DNA of 64,000 bases from Moesziomyces globuligerus (Eukaryota > Basidiomycota > Ustilaginomycetes > Ustilaginales > Ustilaginaceae): NCBI GenBank assembly GCA_030849465.1, contig JARVLF010000015.1, positions 1,116,001 to 1,180,000 on the forward strand, written 5' to 3'. This document shows, piece after piece, positions 36,816 to 46,633 of the stretch. The translations under genes and the position numbers were made by a program. Each line of letters begins with the position of its first letter. Position 1 is the first letter of the stretch. The notes under the pieces were generated by a model that saw only the letters and a list, made by a program, of their open reading frames with translations, ran no database searches and was not told the origin of the DNA.

Positions 36816-39285
36816 TCTGCAAGTCTTCCAGGCGGAACTTGGTGGAGTCGGGCGATGTACTGGGGAGAGGAAACGATGTCGAAGAAGCCGCTTTGCGTCG
36901 CCGATGAGACTGCTGCGGTCTTGCGGATATGGGCGAGATGGAGCGTGCCCTGCTGATGAAGGTGATGAGTGCGGGCTGAGGAGATGAATTGAGTCCGGGC
37001 TGAATTGAGCGTGGTTGCTTGGACCGCCTGGTGGTGGGGCCGTGTCTGGAGACTTTCCGGGTTGCACTGCGTCGAGGCGAAGAGATGACCAAGACAGGCG
37101 TGTGCCACTCAATTCCCACCTCGTATGAAGGGCGGTGCTGGAGAGATGAAAGGACACGATCGCAAGAAGTTGGAAGACGTATGAAGGAGGGAACCTTAGT
37201 CAACCAGACGGCGAAGGGAAGGGGGGAGGCAGGATTAGGGACCAAAAGCAATGCAGACGCACGCTACAAGCTCGACTGCAAGGGCAGGAGGGGTGAAAGC
37301 CAGGGCCCAAGCCGGATGTGCTCGAGGGCGGTGGAGTTGGAGCGAGGATCGAGGCGAGCAATGATGCCATGTCAGGGCGTGGCGGGAACGACGAGCCGGA
37401 CAGCAATAGTTTTTGGGCCTGTCGGTCCGTCCATAGCCGCCTGATCTCCCAACGTGGGCAAGTCGAGACGGGCTCGATGTGCCGTGTCTACCATGGTGTG
37501 GCTCCGCAGCGCGATGCGAGAGGGCGCACGGGAGCGGCACAAACAGCGGATCTCACGGGAAGCAGCGGTACAGTACGCGCCAGCCACCTTGGAAGCCATG
37601 CAAGGCGAGGCAACGCAAGGCGAGGCAACGCAAGGCGAGGCGTTGAGCTGTCAGCGCTGGCTGGGCTGAAAACAGGCCAGGCGGGGCGACAAAATCTGCC
37701 AAAATCGGCGTCATCTAACCGTCTACTGCACAGTACAGTACAGCAGGTGATTACAGTACTGTCGACGCAGCTGAGGTGGCGGGATGGGCTGCGATCTGTG
37801 CCGACGCTCATGCTGCTCATGCTGCTCATGCTGCTCATGCGGCTGCATGCAGGACGAGCACGAGCTGGACCGACGGTCAGATGCACGCAAAAGCAACGTT
37901 GGATTGGCCAAATCCAGTGGCTGGCTGCCAAGCGAGCAAAAGGGGAGAGGAGCGGAATGCCAGACGGATGCATCGCTGGTCAGGGCAGCGGCCCAGGCAC
38001 TGGAGCAGCTGCTCACAGGCAGCTAGGACGACAGGGGCCCGAGTGGCCAAGCGAAGCATCTTGGCGAGCGTGTTGCGCAGCCGAGGATCTTCAACGTGCT
38101 TCTGCTCCTCCAGCCGCGCTCGATTCGACACTGGCGCAGCGCCCAAGCAGAGCGTGACAGTCGGGGCGACACGAACGCTGAGACAAATTGCGCAGTGCCC
38201 ATTCCTAGGGTCTCGCTTCTCAGATGGAAATTGCAGGTCAGATGAAATTCAGCTCACGGTGCTCTTGATCGAGCGTGCCTGCTGCGACGAGGCGAGCCTC
38301 TCGGCAGGCGTCGGCAGGGCTCCGAAAGCTGATATGGCTCGCGACACACGAGACGAGGCTCTCTACTCGCAACATGTTCGCCACTTGTCGCGAGCAAACG
38401 TTCGATCTGGAGCGAGGCGCACGTTTCGACGATCCACTCGCGATCATCACTTTTCACCGGCCCAAGCCACGATGGGGAGACCAAGAGCCAACATCGACGA
38501 GCGCCACCCGATTCGGCCCCGCTCAGCCGCACTACCGACCACGTTGACTCGCCTAGCCTCACGCCTAGCGGCGTTTGCTGCTGCACGTCGACTCGCCCAC
38601 TGCTGTGCTGCGGTCCTCTCGATGCCTTGGCCGTGCCTGCAGGGCCCGCTTGGATGGTCTTGAGGCTTGAGGCGTCCGTGCTAGACCGGCGAGCTTTCTT
38701 TCAGCGGGAAAGGGGTTCAAACGTACCAGTGGCGCAGCGGACAGGCGAGCGGATTCGATCGAAGGCGTCCATTCGTTCTTGCGAGCTAGCCAGCCGCCTA
38801 TCCTCGCATGGCGCCCCCACCGCAGCGCCATCCGATGACACGACCATGCAGGTGTCATGCAGACCTCTGCAGCAGACTTGCAACCGCGCATTCCACGTCG
38901 ATCTCCGCTTTCTTTTTTTTTTTCAACCAAAACGTCGGCGGAGCGCGCGCCCCCGCTCTCTCCTCTTTCAGGGTCCAGTGTTTCACAACTCAGATCGCCA
39001 AACCACGGTCGGAGCCCGATTCGGGCGGGCGAAAGTGATGACTCTGGTTGTCTCCGATCCTGCCGGCCCGCCATGCTCGTCCGGCATCTCGTGCTTCCCG
39101 CCCTCGATCGTCTCTCGGTCCAAGGGGCGCACCGTGGAGATGCGTGCGAACCGCTGCTCATCACCTCCATCCACTTCTCGTCTTCCTGAAGTTTCGCCGA
39201 CAGTCATGTGAAAAATAATACGCGATTTAAAGGGAAATCATTTCACCTAGATTCATTCAAAAAAGGCAAAAAGAAATCCAATTGT
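36816..39285. other. Gene-free stretch between coiled-coil gene and tRNA 3' half
   Basis: About 2.5 kb without a recognised gene. It has three 15-bp tandem units (GCAAGGCGAGGCAAC, 37600-37641) and a 9-bp tandem repeat (CTCATGCTG, 37807-37842). At the right end, on the minus strand just past the tRNA 3' half, lie T-runs (TTTCTTTTTG and TTTTTT, about 39256-39275) that would be the Pol III terminator of that tRNA. Confidence 0.45.
39256..39275 (-). terminator. Pol III terminator of the split tRNA-Ser
   Basis: On the minus strand two T-runs (five and six T) lie about 10-30 nt past the discriminator base of the tRNA 3' half, the usual place and form of an RNA polymerase III stop. Confidence 0.6.
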
Positions 39286-39330
39286 CGACACCCGTCGGAT
39301 TTGAACCGACGCAGGCAGAGCCTATAAGTT
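39286..39330 (-). tRNA. tRNA-Ser(CGA), 3' half (disrupted gene)
   Basis: On the minus strand: nucleotide 38 (39330), 3' anticodon stem ACTTA (39329-39325), a long variable arm AGGCTCTGCCT typical of class II tRNAs, T arm GTCGG-TTCAAAT-CCGAC (39310-39294; perfect B box GGTTCAAATCC), acceptor strand GGGTGTC (39293-39287) and discriminator G (39286), as in serine tRNAs. Its partner, the 5' half, lies 6 kb away at 45382-45418. ACTTA pairs with TAAGT there, and GGGTGTC pairs with GGCACTC (two G-U pairs). The halves were separated by insertion of the Crypton element into the intron. Confidence 0.88.
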
Positions 39331-39343
39331 AACCCGTCACAGT

Positions 39344-39349
39344 GGACGG
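39344..39349. repeat. Left 6-bp direct repeat (GGACGG) at the Crypton insertion
   Basis: GGACGG at 39344-39349 is repeated in the same orientation at 45373-45378. Joining the flanks with a single copy gives a tRNA gene with a normal 22-nt intron, so this is the target-site or recombination-core repeat. Confidence 0.8.
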
Positions 39350-39953
39350 TCGAATTGATATTCAATTGTTATTCGACGCGCTCGAATGGAGGTCCGGATC
39401 ATGGACCCCAGTGGAAAAAACTGGTGAGTTTGGTAACGTCGCGGTGGTGTTGGTTGTTAGACCTGATCGCGATGAACACTCTCCTTGATACATACATGCT
39501 CATGCTGACTGCTCGTGCTCGCGCTCATTGCGCTCATTGCAGCCACACTGCGCACTCCAAAGACCAAAGACCTACAAGCGATGTATGTATTACGAATGAA
39601 CTACATGAAAGAGAAGTCCAAAGCGCAAAGAAGGCATCCTTGCTCAGATGTGTTATGTGTATAACGTCAAGCTGCGCTCGCGCTCGCTCGACGTTCGTAG
39701 TGTTGTATATCATCATGCAAAGGATACCTTCCGCGCGCTAGAGACGGGCAGCCTGGGCGTAGGAAGACATTGTGGGACATGCGCACTGAGCGTCACAAGC
39801 CTCTGAACTCGTTGTGCTGCCCAGAAAAAAGTGTCGTGCGTGTCTTCATCGCCCAGAGTGTGTTCTCGAGCCAGCCTGTATGTTCTCGCACTTACCGCAT
39901 AGTCACCACAATGGACACAGTGTCTTCAAGTCGATCCGTCCTTTGCCCAACCG

Positions 39954-41992
39954 ATTCAGAATGGACGCGATGTGAGGGACCACAAGCTTGAATGGACGCG
40001 ATGTGAGGGACCACAAGCTTGAGCGTCTTCTCGTTCGAGTTGACTTGCTGTGAAGTGCTGGTCAGGAGGCGGTTGGCGAGATCGTTGAATGCCTTGGACT
40101 GGAAGACGACGTGCTTGAAGAGAAAGTGTTGAGGGAACTTCTGTCGAATGAAGACGGCATCCTGTATGGGGATGGGGCGAAGCTCCACCAGCAGCTCGAG
40201 GAAGCCAATTGCGGCCATGTTGCCGCTCTTGTTCTGCTCCGTTGCCTTGGCCTTTTCCTCGTTGAGCTTGACGGTGGCAAGGGGGAAGATCGCATCTAGC
40301 AGAGACTCGGGCACTGGCACGTTGAGAGCAGGCCAAAAGTCGTGTCCATCGTCTGAAAAGCTGACTATCGCCCGCAACCAAGCGAAGGCGTCAGGTGTGC
40401 TAGCGCTTGCTCAGAACGGATGGTGGACAGTAAGTCCGCACATCGTGATCATCATCGCAGCAGCAGCGCAAACCCAACGAGTCAGGCGGAGGTCCAACGA
40501 ATCAGGCGGAGGTGGAGGTCGCCTTGAACGGAAATGATGCTGTGATGCCAGTCGGAAGGCCTTGCCCTGCGCCTCGTATGAGATGGGATTGGCTGCGCTT
40601 TGGTTGATAGAAGGAAAAAGCTTGATGTCGTACCAGGTTTTGTTGGACGTGAAGTCCGGGAACTGCTCCTCGATGCTCTTGCTCTTGTTCGAAGGAAGTC
40701 GACGTTGTCCAGTGAGAGTATCGTGATCCTTAAGAAAAAGTCTTGTCGTGGCGTGTGTGTACTTACCAACCAAGAAGAGAAGAGAGCTGCAGGCGTCAAG
40801 AATGTTGGGTACCGAGTCCATATTGTCGTTTGTCGCTATCAAGGAAGAGTTGCTGGTTGCTATCGAGAACGAGGACCCTTGTGTGCAGACGAGCAAGCGC
40901 AAGCTCAGCAAGTAAGGGCTTTGCCCAGCGGGCGTGATGGCGTGATGGCAAGAACATCCTTCGCTGGCGGATGCTGTCGTGCTTGCACTCGAGTCCTTCG
41001 TTCGCCGGTTTGATGAGTTGGTCGGCATGCAAGATGCCGTCGAGCAGCGTGCCTTTTCCACAATCCACGTACGTTTCCTTGTGCTTCTTGGCTTGCTGCA
41101 GACGCAGTGTCTGCGTCAGGGTTGCAACCGGGCCACTGCGCGGATTGGGGTGATTGTTGATCCCCTGGTGGCACTGGGTCTTCCATAGATCGACGACTGC
41201 GGCAATGTAAAGGTTGATCGATGACAGGACAAGCCCATCCGCAGTGCCGAGACCATCCGCAGCGCAATCGTTCGCAGTGTCGTCCAGCCCATCTGCGTTT
41301 TCGACGCCCTCGAGGGCTAGATCAGTCGTCACACGCGAGCTTGATGCGATGGCAGGCGTGAGCGCGGAAGAAGACGCATTGCTGATGGTGGACGAAGGTG
41401 GTGGGGTCGGCAGACTTGGTTGGGAGGGAACAGGGATCGCGCTGGCCGGCGATAGCGCGGTGTCGGTGGATGGCGATGGCGTCGGTGGCGGTGTTGAGGA
41501 AGGGGGAAGCGACACAATGGGCAACGGAGTGCCACTCTTGCTGGACCGTGGTGGCTTTCGTTGGTGCTGGGAGTTTCTCTTCTTCACGACGCAGTCCTGA
41601 CCAAAAATTGGAAGAGATCGATCGCATGACCGTGTTTGCTCCGTGAGACAGTATGATGGCGCAGGTAGAGAGTGCATTGACAAGGTTGTTAGTCATGATC
41701 TCGCAAAGCATCTGGGTGCCACAAGTACTTACGGGTTGGGTGGAGTATCGTGCCACTCTTGCTTCATCCGATTGTAAGGCTTTCTTGTGTTGGTGGGACG
41801 TATCACATCGTGTTGATCTTGAACGAACTGGAGAGACCCGGCCAAGGAAGCGCCGGGTTGTCGTAAAGGAAGTCCGAAACTCTGCTGCGGCGCTCGATGA
41901 GCGGATGCGGATGCAGGAGCTGGTGTGGCCTCCGGCGCGTATGGAGTGCTTGCCACGCGCTTGCGCGGGTGGCTAGGGCGCTGGGCTGGCAT
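39954..41992 (-). pseudogene. Second Crypton recombinase copy, degenerate and mosaic
   Basis: Homologous to the intact recombinase gene, but broken. Blocks nearly identical to it: the 5' leader and exon-1 start (41992 to about 41755, MPAQRPSHPRKRVASTPYAP and on), the Pro/Ser linker and N-terminal core (about 41570-41010), KSKSIEEQFPDFTSN (about 40690-40560), and a C-terminal piece (about 40350-39960). Between them are stretches that differ greatly, with stops and frame changes. The Arg box is altered, and the HxxR and Tyr block plus the whole GCR1_C-like region are missing, so no active recombinase can be made. The end has an exact 31-bp tandem duplication (39960-40021). Confidence 0.82.
39960..40021. 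repeat. 31-bp exact tandem duplication
   Basis: Two identical 31-bp units (39960-39990 and 39991-40021, each starting AATGGACGCGATGTGAGGGA). The intact Crypton copy has the unit once (about 43006-43036), so this is a local duplication at the end of homology of the broken copy. Confidence 0.9.
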
Positions 41993-42288
41993 GGAAGTTG
42001 TTGTTCGATGGCTAGACGCGTTGGAAAGGGTGAGATTGGCGGTGGTGCAATGGGTGATGATGGTAGTGTGGAGGATGAGACCAATGGCACTTCGAAAACG
42101 TCCCTTTGTAACTCAGCCACGCGCACGGACGCGTATGCGCCTCTGTATACACCTTCAACAGGTAAGACAAGACCGTTCACCATCGTCGTCATGATCAACA
42201 ATACAGGCAGTACAGCAACACAGACAATGCTTCATTGGAACGCGTGGCATTCAGAGTGTGATGTAACCGTAATGAATTGCTAGAAGTC

Positions 42289-45015
42289 TTACTCGGCGGA
42301 GCGTTGTCCCATGCTCTGTTCCAAGCTCTCGGCCAGAATCTCCATGGCTATCGGCACGAGGTCATAGTCGATGTCAACGGTGGTGGGCAGAGCCTGAGGA
42401 AGACTCTTTTTCTTGATGGCCTCTTGAAGACTGTAGAGCGACTGGTTGGGAAGCGATAACATGAAGGTGTCGAGTTGGGCGGCAACGGCGGTGGGCGACA
42501 TGTTCTGCGCCTCTGCGCGGCGCTGTATCTCCTGAAGGATGCCCAGACGACGCTGGAAGAACCTGCGATCACTGTCACTGTGGCCTTCCCACTTGTGCAG
42601 CGGATGCTCGTACACCGACTTGAGCGACGGCCGATCTTCGATGCCTTCGCTATACTCCTGCCACAGCATTGAAACCGTCTTGATCTTGCGGTCCGGAGCA
42701 ATGTACTTGTAGCCCTCAGAACCAGATGTGCTGGTGGGCAGAGACGGCACCGATGACACCGATGTGGGTGGAGTGCGAGGGCCTTCCGAACTTGACGACG
42801 TTGAGGGTTGCGATGCGGAATCTATGGCCTCATTGGCCGACTGCCCCATGTTCACGTAGCCGTTCGCCATCGCCCGAAGCACTCTACGTGTAGCTAGCGA
42901 TTCCCTACTGACCGTCTCTTGGATTGCTGCCGAATCCTCCTTGCCCGCAGCGGCAGTGATCTTGAGTTCCTGCTTGATGGACGACATCTGTGCAGTCAGA
43001 ATGGACGCGATGTGAGGGACCACAAGCTTGAGCGTCTTCTCGACCGGGTCAACTTGCTGTGAGGTGCTGGTCAGGAGGCGGTTGGCGAAATCGTTGAATG
43101 CCTTGGACTGGAAGACGACGTGCTTGAAGAGAAAGTGTTGAGGGAACTTCTGTCGAATGAAGACGGCATCCTGTATGAGGATGGGGCGAAGCTCCACCAG
43201 CAGCTCGAGGAAGCCAATTGCGGCCATGTTGCCGCTCTTGTTCTGCTCCGTTGCCTTGGCCTTTTCCTCGTTGAGCTTGACGGTGGCAAGGGGGAAGATC
43301 GCATCTAGCAGAGACTCTGGCACCGGCACGTCGCGAGCTATCCAAAAGTCGCCTCCTTCTGCTGAAAAGCCGGCTAGTGTTCGCATTGTCTGTCGAGGAA
43401 GCTGAGTGAGATAGCAGTTTGCCACTGCACTCTGCTCCCATCGACCCGAACGCCGGATATCGTCCACGTTTGCGCCTCCAAGCTCGGCCATCCTGGCGCC
43501 TGTCGAGCGCATCAAGTGCGTCACCTTGGACGTCTCAATACCTTGACGCACAAACGCCGATCGAAAGGCCTTGGCCTGCGCCTCGTATGAGATGGGATCG
43601 GCTGCGCTTTGGTTGATAGAAGGAAAGAGCTTGATGTCGTACCAGGTTTCGTTGGACGTGAAGTCCGGGAATTGCTCCTCGATGCTCTTGCTCTTGTCGA
43701 GAAGTGGCGGGGCACCCAGATGGAAGCGACAGAAGAGCAGGAATGCCAGCCCGCCAATCGGACAGAACTCGACATTCTTGTTGCGAAGCATGCCAGCCAT
43801 CTCCAGCCGTCCTCCTTGGTTCGTCTTGCCATTCCTGAGAGTTGCGATGAGCGCCAAGCACCGAGAGTGTGTGCTGTCGCTATCCAGGACGATCGTGTGC
43901 AGATCCGCCAGCTCCAGTTTCCGGGCATTGTCGCCACGAAGAAGGGCAAAGTGCGACATCAGCATCATCAATCGATCCCGGATACCCTCGAAGGTGGCGC
44001 GCTCGAATCCGTCGTTCGCCAGTTTGATGAGTTGATCGGCATGCGAGATGCCATCAAGCAGCGTGCCTTTTCCGCGATCCACATACGTCTCCTTGTGCTT
44101 CTTGGCTTGCTGCAGACGCAGTGTCTGCGTCAGGGTTGCAACCGGGCCACCGCGCGGATTGGGGTGATTGTTGATCCCCTGGTGGCACTGGGTCTTCCAT
44201 AGATCGACGACTGCGGCAATGTAAAGGTTGATCGATGACGGACCAAGCCCATCCGCAGTGCCGAGACCATCCGCAGTGCCATCGTTCGCAGTGTCGTCCA
44301 GCCCATCTGCGTTTTCATCGCACTCAGTGGCGGGATCAATCGTCACACGCGAGCTTGATGCGATGGCAGGCGTGAGCACGGAAGAAGATGCATTGCTGAT
44401 GATGGACGAAGGTGGTGGGGTCGGCAGACTTGGTTGGGAGGGAACGGGGATCGCGCTGGCCGGCGATAGCGCGGTGTCGGTGGATGGCGATGGCGTCGGT
44501 GGCGGTGTTGAGGAAGGGGGAAGCGACACAATGGGCAACGGAGTGCCACTCTTGCTGGACCGTGGTGGCTTTCGTTGGTGCTGCGTCTTCTTCTTCGTCA
44601 GGACGTAGTCCTGAAGGAAAAACGCGAGCTTTGCTTGAGTGACCGTATACCTGTATTGCGATGAAAAGCAGCACTTTGTCAGTAGTCATGTCGTTGAGGA
44701 TTGTCTCGTATGAAAGTGCACTTACGTGAGCGGTGCTCTAAACTCATAGTCAGTCTGGCGATCGCACCAGTCGTACCACTCTTGCTTCCTTCGATCGTAC
44801 GCCTTTCTTGTGTTGGTGGGACGTATCACATCGTGTTGATCTTGGATGAGCTGCAGAGACCCGGCCAAGGAAGCGCCGGGTTGTCGTAAAGGAAGTCCGA
44901 AACTCTGCTGCGGCGCTTGATGAGCGGATGCGGATGCAGGAGCTGGTGTGGCCTCCGGCGCGTATGGAGTGCTTGCCACGCGCTTGCGCGGGTGGCTAGG
45001 GCGCTGGGCTGGCAT
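42289..45015 (-). CDS. Crypton tyrosine recombinase with GCR1_C-like domain (2 exons)
   Basis: Predicted 883 aa. Exons 45015-44726 and 44650-42289; the 75-nt intron is GTAAGT...ATACAG. The N-terminus has the fungal Crypton start DVIRPTNTRKAYDRRKQEW and, across the splice, VTQAKLAFFLQDYVL. After a Pro/Ser linker comes the recombinase core: catalytic Arg in HFALLRGDNARKLELADL (Arg about 335), HLMRSTGARMAEL giving HxxR (His about 475, Arg about 478), and nucleophile Tyr in AVANCYLTQLP (about 510). A GCR1_C-like DNA-binding domain lies at about 752-810 (TVSMLWQEYSEGIEDRPSLK, then RRFFQRRLGILQEIQRR). No internal stop. Related to Crypton elements; DIRS and Starship recombinases lack this C-terminal domain. 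The full catalytic set and the clean frame suggest recent activity. Confidence 0.88.
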
Positions 45016-45215
45016 GGAAGTTGTTGTTTGATGGCTAGACGCGTTGGAAAGGGTGAGATTGGCGGTGGTGCAATGGGTGATGATGGTGGTGCGGAGGCTG
45101 AGTCAAATGGCACTTGCAAGACGAAAGCACCGACACACACCAACACCAACAAAGTGGGCTGTACAACGTGCATCAAATGAGACCCTTAAATGTGGGCTCT
45201 AAAATGTGGAGGTAG

Positions 45216-45248
45216 AATAACTCAAGTTATTGGAGTGTTAGGCTCCAA
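45216..45248. repeat. Adjacent short palindromes in the Crypton 5' region
   Basis: AATAACTCAAGTTATT (45216-45231) is a perfect palindrome around a 2-nt centre. It overlaps TTGGAG...CTCCAA (45230-45248). Both lie between the recombinase gene and the right end of the element. They could be recombinase or host-factor sites. Confidence 0.6.
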
Positions 45249-45356
45249 ATAACATCAGTTACGCAACCAATAACTCTCAAATTTGGAACTGATTTGGCGG
45301 GGAAAATTCGCGTGTGTGGTCCGGATTGTGCTGCAATTTGCTGCAGTTTCTCAGAC

Positions 45357-45367
45357 GGTCCGGACCG
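45357..45367. repeat. GGTCC-C-GGACC inverted repeat at the right end
   Basis: Inverted repeat of 5 bp around one base, ending 5 bp inside the right border of the Crypton. A related GGTCCGGA lies at 45318-45325 and again near the left end at 39391-39398. Confidence 0.55.
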
Positions 45368-45372
45368 GCAGG

Positions 45373-45378
45373 GACGGA
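45373..45378. repeat. Right 6-bp direct repeat (GGACGG) at the Crypton insertion
   Basis: Same-orientation copy of the repeat at 39344-39349; it marks the right border of the inserted element inside the tRNA intron. Confidence 0.8.
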
Positions 45379-45381
45379 TAA

Positions 45382-45418
45382 TCGAGACTTACCCCTTAAC
45401 CACTCGGGCAGAGTGCCT
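45382..45418 (-). tRNA. tRNA-Ser(CGA), 5' half (disrupted gene)
   Basis: On the minus strand from 45418: acceptor GGCACTC, T8-G9, D arm CCC-GAGTGGTTAA-GGG (A box region TGCCCGAGTGG), anticodon stem TAAGT (45392-45388), then loop C-T-CGA with anticodon CGA at 45385-45383 and T at nominal position 37 (45382). The intron begins after this, the canonical 37/38 site. The acceptor sequence and the class II layout match yeast-type tRNA-Ser(CGA), which also has an intron. Position 37 is T where A is usual. With 6 kb between the A and B boxes and T-runs in between, a functional tRNA is not expected. Confidence 0.88.
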
Positions 45419-45610
45419 TAGATGGAAGCTGGAACAAGCATTGCATACATGACCTATGTGACTGGGTTTTCCCTCGACCCTTCGAGTGGAGGTTTGGTAC
45501 GGATCAAGAAGAATCGAGCACGAGCCGCTTCTTCCCACATCACCACCGAGGTCGCTTTCCGACGTTGACCCACTTGCATCCTTCGGTGGCCAGGAAGTGA
45601 GCGAAGTGGG

Positions 45611-46633
45611 ATGGCAGCATCTTCACTGCTGACGCTGCGGTATGCGAGCCTCGATGATGTGGCGCAAGATCTGGACATGGTGATCCAGTCTTCGCCGGCC
45701 GATCAGTGGTCCTGGGACGGCGCCAATGCCGACGAGGAAAGTGCCTGGTCGCGCTTCGTCCATGATCCGAGCTCTTTTCAAACCAATGGTGCTTCAGAAG
45801 CTGGGTCCGGCATTGCCGGTCTGTCTGGCAAGATCCAAGTGACGCCGGCCGTAGCGCTGTCCTTCTCGCTTCTGGCTCGGGCCGGTGCACTGGATGCGTC
45901 GGTGGTGGAGGCGGCCGTGGACGTGTCGGCGCCCACTGTCGCCAGCGAGGACATGGCAGCGATCAGAGGTGCGCTTATATCTCGCTCTCAGGCGTGGGCA
46001 GACGATGCAGTCGAGTCGCTCTTCCTATTCGACCTGCTCACCACCGCACAGGAGTGTGCAACGTCGGCGGATCTGGGCCCGTCCAATCCAGGCGAGCACC
46101 ACGACGATCCCGAGTCTGACGCGCATCTGCAGCAGGCGGGTACAGCTGCTGGGTTGGAGATGTCGCGCGCGCTCTTCTGGTCGCACCACCTCAAGGCGCC
46201 GTCGAAGCTCAAGGACTTCAACAACTGGTGTCCCGAGCTGCGCGTCTGGGGGATCGTGCGTGTCGGCTATCCAGGCTACCTGTGCTTCGAAGGCGAGGCC
46301 TCCGCAGTAGACGAGATGGTGCGTAGAGTCAAGGGACTCCAGTGGCACGCCATCCAGCAGCGCGTCAACGAGACGTGGACGTGGTCCGCCTCGTCATCAC
46401 CCGACCACGGAGCTGCCGATCTCGAGCCACTGGAACGTGCGCTCCTGTCGTGCGCGCTGGCTAGGAATCATCCTGCGAACGCACAGCAGACGGGCAAGGT
46501 CAGGACGGGATGCCAAGTCATCGAGTCGCTTGGAGACCTCGTGCAACGTCTGCGCGACTGCGGCCTCGACAAGGAAGAAATCTCGGACGCTCTTGGTGTT
46601 CGTATCAGTGCAGGCCAAGAGCCGGATTCGTAA
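45611..46633 (+). CDS. RWD / DUF1115 domain protein (RWDD2-like)
   Basis: 340 aa, ATG at 45611, no intron needed. The N-terminal 1-140 region has the start and size of an RWD domain (LRYASLDDVAQDLDMV). The C-terminal DUF1115 block is clearer: ALFWSHHLKAPSKLKDFNNW (about 197-216), ELRVWGIVRVGYPGYLCFEG (about 219-238), then VDEMVRRVKGLQWHAIQQR. This is the layout of RWD domain-containing protein 2 (RWDD2A/B). Molecular function is unknown; RWD domains mediate protein contacts, for example with GCN1 or SUMO/ubiquitin enzymes. Starts 193 bp from the tRNA 5' half, so its promoter region borders the Crypton insertion. Convergent with the metalloprotease gene. Confidence 0.8.
   Translation: MAASSLLTLRYASLDDVAQDLDMVIQSSPADQWSWDGANADEESAWSRFVHDPSSFQTNGASEAGSGIAGLSGKIQVTPAVALSFSLLARAGALDASVVEAAVDVSAPTVASEDMAAIRGALISRSQAWADDAVESLFLFDLLTTAQECATSADLGPSNPGEHHDDPESDAHLQQAGTAAGLEMSRALFWSHHLKAPSKLKDFNNWCPELRVWGIVRVGYPGYLCFEGEASAVDEMVRRVKGLQWHAIQQRVNETWTWSASSSPDHGAADLEPLERALLSCALARNHPANAQQTGKVRTGCQVIESLGDLVQRLRDCGLDKEEISDALGVRISAGQEPDS

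Follow-up and report, generated by a model that had tools for sequence, protein, structure and literature searches.

Related elements and their targets

Many bacterial integrases of phages and genomic islands are tyrosine recombinases that use tRNA genes through a short identical core, and some of them are known to cross over within the anticodon loop. Bacterial elements that integrate there usually carry the missing end of the tRNA and restore the gene. The Starships of Pezizomycotina are giant cargo-bearing elements with a DUF3435 captain, a fungal tyrosine recombinase that is related to those of Cryptons. Cryptons were reportedly first described by Goodwin et al. in 2003.

According to the main text of Kojima and Jurka (2011, PMC3212892), CryptonF elements combine a tyrosine recombinase (YR) with GCR1_C and mostly have 6-bp terminal repeats, while many CryptonS share TATGG termini. 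The word "tRNA" occurs 0 times in that main text. For some CryptonV, microsatellites are given as targets in the passages of PMC8869645 on this group. Beyond these two statements, the passages give no target choice for Cryptons. Dada elements, which are DDE transposons, have their insertion sites in tRNA genes, both around the anticodon and in the A box (nucleotides 8-13), and this specificity is stated to be confirmed for many families in the parts of PMC8869645 and PMC3706591 that treat Dada. The passages on Cryptons in a review of yeast transposons describe Cryptococcus elements with a 4-bp repeat and mention no tRNA link (PMC7175516). Many cryptophyte polinton-like viruses have tyrosine recombinases, and the part of PMC12220804 on their surroundings gives no tRNA genes within 1 kb. 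None of the titles and abstract openings that literature searches listed describes a Crypton in a tRNA gene.

The element analyzed here was found in the window (the whole stretch of DNA that was analyzed, 64,000 nucleotides, C15:1116001-1180000) of a genome of 18.5 Mb in 24 contigs, which its size and its type of transposon mark as probably fungal. It resembles CryptonF in having a single YR gene with a GCR1_C end, no long terminal repeats and 6-bp direct repeats. It differs from CryptonF as described in the main text of PMC3212892 in that two of its four copies split tRNA genes. A further difference is that the unit holds a second, incomplete version of the recombinase gene. With Dada it shares the presence in tRNA genes, here at the anticodon loop (Ser) and at D-loop bases 19-24 (Ile). 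It has, however, a tyrosine recombinase rather than a DDE transposase and only four copies, and its D-loop bases are not those of Dada. Two unrelated enzyme classes, the DDE transposase of Dada and the tyrosine recombinase here, thus both strike the anticodon region of tRNA genes. As in bacterial elements that integrate into tRNA genes, there is a tyrosine recombinase and a short core, and the parallel to such integrases that the first-pass annotation had drawn was right. Unlike the bacterial elements, the Crypton does not restore the split tRNA: at both tRNA sites, the element sequence that follows the core is CCGTCCCTGCC, which is not the tRNA's own 3' sequence. At 6014 bp, without recognized cargo and without a DUF3435 match in the Pfam scan, it is also unlike a Starship. 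Overall, the base-level evidence is good.

The four copies and the split tRNA-Ser(CGA) gene

In the window, a tRNA-Ser(CGA) gene is interrupted by a Crypton-type transposon with a tyrosine recombinase (Table 1). The copies of this transposon were located by a genome search with both junctions and the recombinase as queries. Besides the copy in the window, there are three complete copies (C5:200917-206930, C9:430018-436031 and C23:338465-344478). All four have the same length, and 0 mismatches were found in six of six pairwise comparisons, although this zero divergence could partly be the assembler's consensus. The left end reads ATAATC-AATTGTTATTC in three copies and ATATTC-AATTGTTATTC in the copy on C15, and the right end, GGGACGG-ATAATC, is common to all four. 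The core ATAATC consequently flanks three copies at both ends, while the C15 copy has ATATTC on the left and ATAATC on the right.

Table 1. Coordinates of the element, its predicted gene and the split tRNA gene, in positions of the window.
Feature	Position	Strand	Remark
tRNA-Ser(CGA) 3' part, A38 to discriminator G73	39286..39330	-	ARAGORN on joined flanks; identical to C3
Residual intron of the host tRNA, 27 nt (30 nt when three core bases are counted in)	39331..39357	-	Aligned to the C3 intron (31 nt)
Left core ATATTC (tRNA sense GAATAT), taken to be the version of the original target	39358..39363		C3 paralog has GAATAC there
CryptonF-type element, 6014 bp	39364..45377	-	Four copies, 0 mismatches
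Partial degenerate recombinase duplicate, without GCR1_C match	39956..42100 (limits approximate)	-	Inside the mobile unit
Recombinase, predicted exon 2 to stop	42289..44650	-	Spliced product 884 aa, NDC10_II (tyrosine-recombinase-like) and GCR1_C
Recombinase, predicted exon 1	44726..45015	-	GTAAGT donor, 75-nt intron, frame kept across junction; prediction only
Right core ATAATC (tRNA sense GATTAT), element's version	45378..45383		Same 6-mer at both ends of C5, C9 and C23
tRNA-Ser(CGA) 5' part, bases 1-34 (through anticodon base C34)	45384..45417	-	ARAGORN on joined flanks; identical to C3:385383

When introns are allowed, ARAGORN calls the flanks joined with the left core tRNA-Ser(cga). In tRNA sense, this core (GAATAT) spans anticodon bases 35-36 and A37 and continues for three bases into the intron, which places the crossover in the anticodon loop. 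The right core also supplies anticodon bases 35-36 but has a T at position 37, and the flanks joined with it are called Thr(cgt) with a different intron placement. The target core prior to insertion was probably GAATAT. Without the element, the intron has 30 nt and is at the canonical 37/38 splice site when read by eye (ARAGORN: 30 nt at 38/39). In support of this reading, an intact paralog (C3:385383-385495) is identical in both tRNA halves and has a 31-nt intron that starts with TAC (read by eye). When the genome was searched with the 36-nt 5' half, allowing up to three mismatches, exactly two sites were obtained, on C15 and at C3:385383; the insertion therefore took one of two tRNA-Ser(CGA) genes.

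In its present state, the gene on C15 would have T37 and a 6-kb intron, and four consecutive T follow about 110 bases into it. Such a stretch of T should stop RNA polymerase III, and the gene is most likely dead. Neither ARAGORN in bacterial mode nor Rfam at gathering scores gave a tRNA in the window, as would be expected of a split gene. The start of an ORF on the opposite strand (45611-46633; Prp3_C-domain match, 1.1e-6) and the 5' end of the interrupted tRNA gene are 193 bp apart.

The first-pass annotation had proposed a Crypton inside an intron-containing tRNA-Ser(CGA) gene, with its recombinase gene between the halves. Both statements are borne out, by the ARAGORN call on the joined flanks and the intact paralog on C3 in the one case, and by the domains of the recombinase (see below) in the other. 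It had given the halves as 45418-45382 and 39330-39286 on the minus strand. The halves and the strand are correct, while the first base is 45417. The boundary, which had been placed at GGACGG direct repeats, had to be revised. The right GGACGG (45372-45377) is found in all four copies and is thus the element's own last six bases, and the left one (39344-39349) belongs to the host intron. Consistent with this, the suggested search for other copies yielded three that lack GGACGG repeats, and the same copies gave ATAATC. Removing the element with one GGACGG would leave a gene with T37, whereas with the corrected join position 37 is an A, as it is in the C3 gene; the intron has 30 nt rather than the proposed 22. 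Nor is the crossover core in an arm of an intron hairpin, as it overlaps the anticodon and base 37; the first arm of CCGTC/GACGG begins only at the ninth base after the core and was rejected as crossover site on that ground. It had also suggested asking whether the flanks of other copies are tRNA introns. The copy on C9 is in a tRNA-Ile gene, but those on C5 and C23 are not inside a tRNA gene, so that a strict rule with a tRNA intron as attachment site is not supported.

The recombinase gene and its duplicate

The element fits CryptonF by the features of its predicted protein and of its ends. Pfam assigns NDC10_II (9.9e-53) and a C-terminal GCR1_C (4.2e-12) to the recombinase. A Phage_integrase match (0.005) is short of the Pfam cut-off and spans the HxxR...W...Y stretch. 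Under this match, HLMR, GRW and Y were read by eye in the putative recombinase, which we take to belong to its catalytic pattern (R, HxxR, H/W and Y in tyrosine recombinases). In the five element ORFs scanned, there was no Pfam match to a reverse transcriptase or DDE transposase, only to recombinase-type domains. The direct repeats are short (6-bp cores). Among inverted-repeat pairs of at least 14 bases, the region 39150-45500 contains two, one being internal and the other a palindrome at the right end, so there is no terminal pair. The sequence GGTCCGGA occurs at 39391, 42690, 45318 and 45357 (plus strand), three of these positions being near the element ends, and could be a motif to which the recombinase or its GCR1_C domain binds.

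The partial, degenerate tandem duplicate (39956-42100) corresponds to 42996-45120, in blocks that are 94-97% identical, with a spacing of 3009-3023 bases. It contains a TGA, and GCR1_C is found once per element copy. Because all four copies carry the duplicate, it most likely predates their spread. A search of PDB sequences with the recombinase gave nothing at E <= 0.1, and no relatives were found in viral and prokaryote contigs. A structure model was discarded (mean pLDDT 33.6). A lone GCR1_C-type fragment near a contig end (L023, C24:1814-2260), which shares 41% identity with the recombinase's C-terminal part, is a probable relic of another Crypton family.

Insertion and the choice of targets

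(a) Very probably, a recently mobile CryptonF with one tyrosine recombinase was inserted by core recombination into one of the two tRNA-Ser(CGA) genes. A single recombinase with a GCR1_C DNA-binding end would move the element, which would be excised as a circle carrying the core GATTAT. The formation of circles has been proposed for Cryptons (main text of PMC3212892). The circle's GATTAT would recombine with a similar chromosomal 6-mer, on C15 with the GAATAT that extends from the anticodon across base 37 into the intron. One junction would keep the target's core there, and the other would receive that of the element. The insertion would kill the C15 copy of the tRNA, the function being covered by the C3 copy. 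Since a staggered-cut duplication leaves equal copies of the target, the unlike cores on C15 fit better to recombination of differing cores, although the mismatch could be a single later point mutation. An assembly error that joined the element to tRNA halves might also be considered, as four identical 6-kb repeats are typical material for short-read misassembly. It is highly improbable: there are four loci with differing flanks, the junctions are exact at each of them, all have the same 6-bp core (of the eight ends, one has a single mismatch), and at two of these loci, removal of the element and one core gives tRNA genes with exons that match intact paralogs.

(b) The copy on C9 is in the D-loop of a tRNA-Ile gene, with the core at bases 19-24 when counted along the gene. 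The joined flanks form an intron-containing tRNA-Ile, and the unbroken target, AGTTGGATTATCGC, is found in the D-loop of three intact tRNA-Ile(AAT) genes (on C5, C21 and C11). ARAGORN names the joined gene Ile(gat) via a different intron placement and the paralogs Ile(aat). The target is an exact native match to GATTAT. A site with one mismatch to this D-loop (C3:79243) gave no tRNA call. On C23, a tRNA-Phe(GAA) gene (C23:344626-344726) ends 141 bp from the core; the site looks intergenic (ORFs were inspected on one flank). The C5 copy is in the upstream region of an ORF (at least 270 aa), at a distance of about 200 bp, and ARAGORN, with introns of up to 200 bases, found no tRNA within about 9.9 kb on each side. 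The joined C5 flanks were examined with ARAGORN alone. A hidden gene for a known RNA was considered for this site and rejected: Rfam (E <= 5, 8.1 kb around and inside the copy) gave three matches, all of them sub-gathering and within the element. Compared by eye, the joined ends of the element and the four sites have little in common except GA[T/A]TAT, with C as the next base in three of the sites.

(c) A preference for tRNA genes is suggested by these four insertions (two inside tRNA genes, one at 141 bp, one far from any found), not proven (n = 4). Its main rival is open chromatin combined with a 6-bp core. The recombinase would then have no tie to tRNA genes and would use any 6-mer resembling GATTAT that lies in open chromatin, such as gene flanks and promoters; hits in tRNA genes would be due to their openness and to the exact 6-mer in tRNA-Ile. 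Taken jointly, these statements are about evenly balanced between right and wrong. Promoters and tRNA genes tend to have few nucleosomes, which is in line with this reading, as are the two copies outside tRNA genes, the exact native target on C9 and the abundance of GATTAT. The 6-mer occurs 859 times in the genome on both strands (reversed control pattern: 299), about seven of these sites having been created by the insertions themselves. This exact count replaced an estimate (about 2300 per genome) that came from a sample of 127,780 bases; probabilities based on that estimate or on an even genome spread mostly favour a tRNA preference more and were set aside. Against open chromatin alone speak the first 100 GATTAT places listed, of which one is in and one within 150 bp of a known tRNA gene, compared with two of four insertions inside tRNA genes and one of four at 141 bp; the reference here is an incomplete set of 14 known genes on C1-C5 (62 of 289 candidates scored). 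So do the statistics, from which C15 was left out because it had brought the finding to attention: two of three remaining insertions in or within 150 bp of a tRNA gene have a probability of about 0.001-0.003 at a rate of 2-3%, with the distance limit chosen afterwards and the same incomplete tRNA list.

(d) Alternatively, the recombinase or a partner may have a preference for tRNA genes or for chromatin bound by Pol III, and the core would determine the exact base. We regard this as a real possibility but lean slightly against it. It would account for two of four copies in tRNA genes and another one close by, and for the use of a mismatched core on C15 despite hundreds of exact ones. It is weakened by the sample of four, by the C5 copy, which is distant from any tRNA found, and by the insertions inside tRNA genes when C15 is omitted (one of three; probability 0.03-0.06 at a rate of 1-2%). 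On the furthest-reaching reading, which is somewhat less likely than not, a CryptonF lineage adopted tRNA genes as preferred landing sites, in the anticodon loop and in the D-loop beside the A box, without restoring the gene and tolerated through spare tRNA copies. If a tRNA preference is true, this would be a eukaryotic parallel, with a tyrosine recombinase, to the attachment sites in bacterial tRNA genes. With the core GATTAT and the tRNA targets known to the base, two paralog sets and four identical copies, the element provides a test system.

(e) Genes for 5S rRNA (L061:2152-2270, L058:699-817 and L062:1205-1323) are about 2, 9 and 8 kb from the copies on C9, C5 and C23, respectively.
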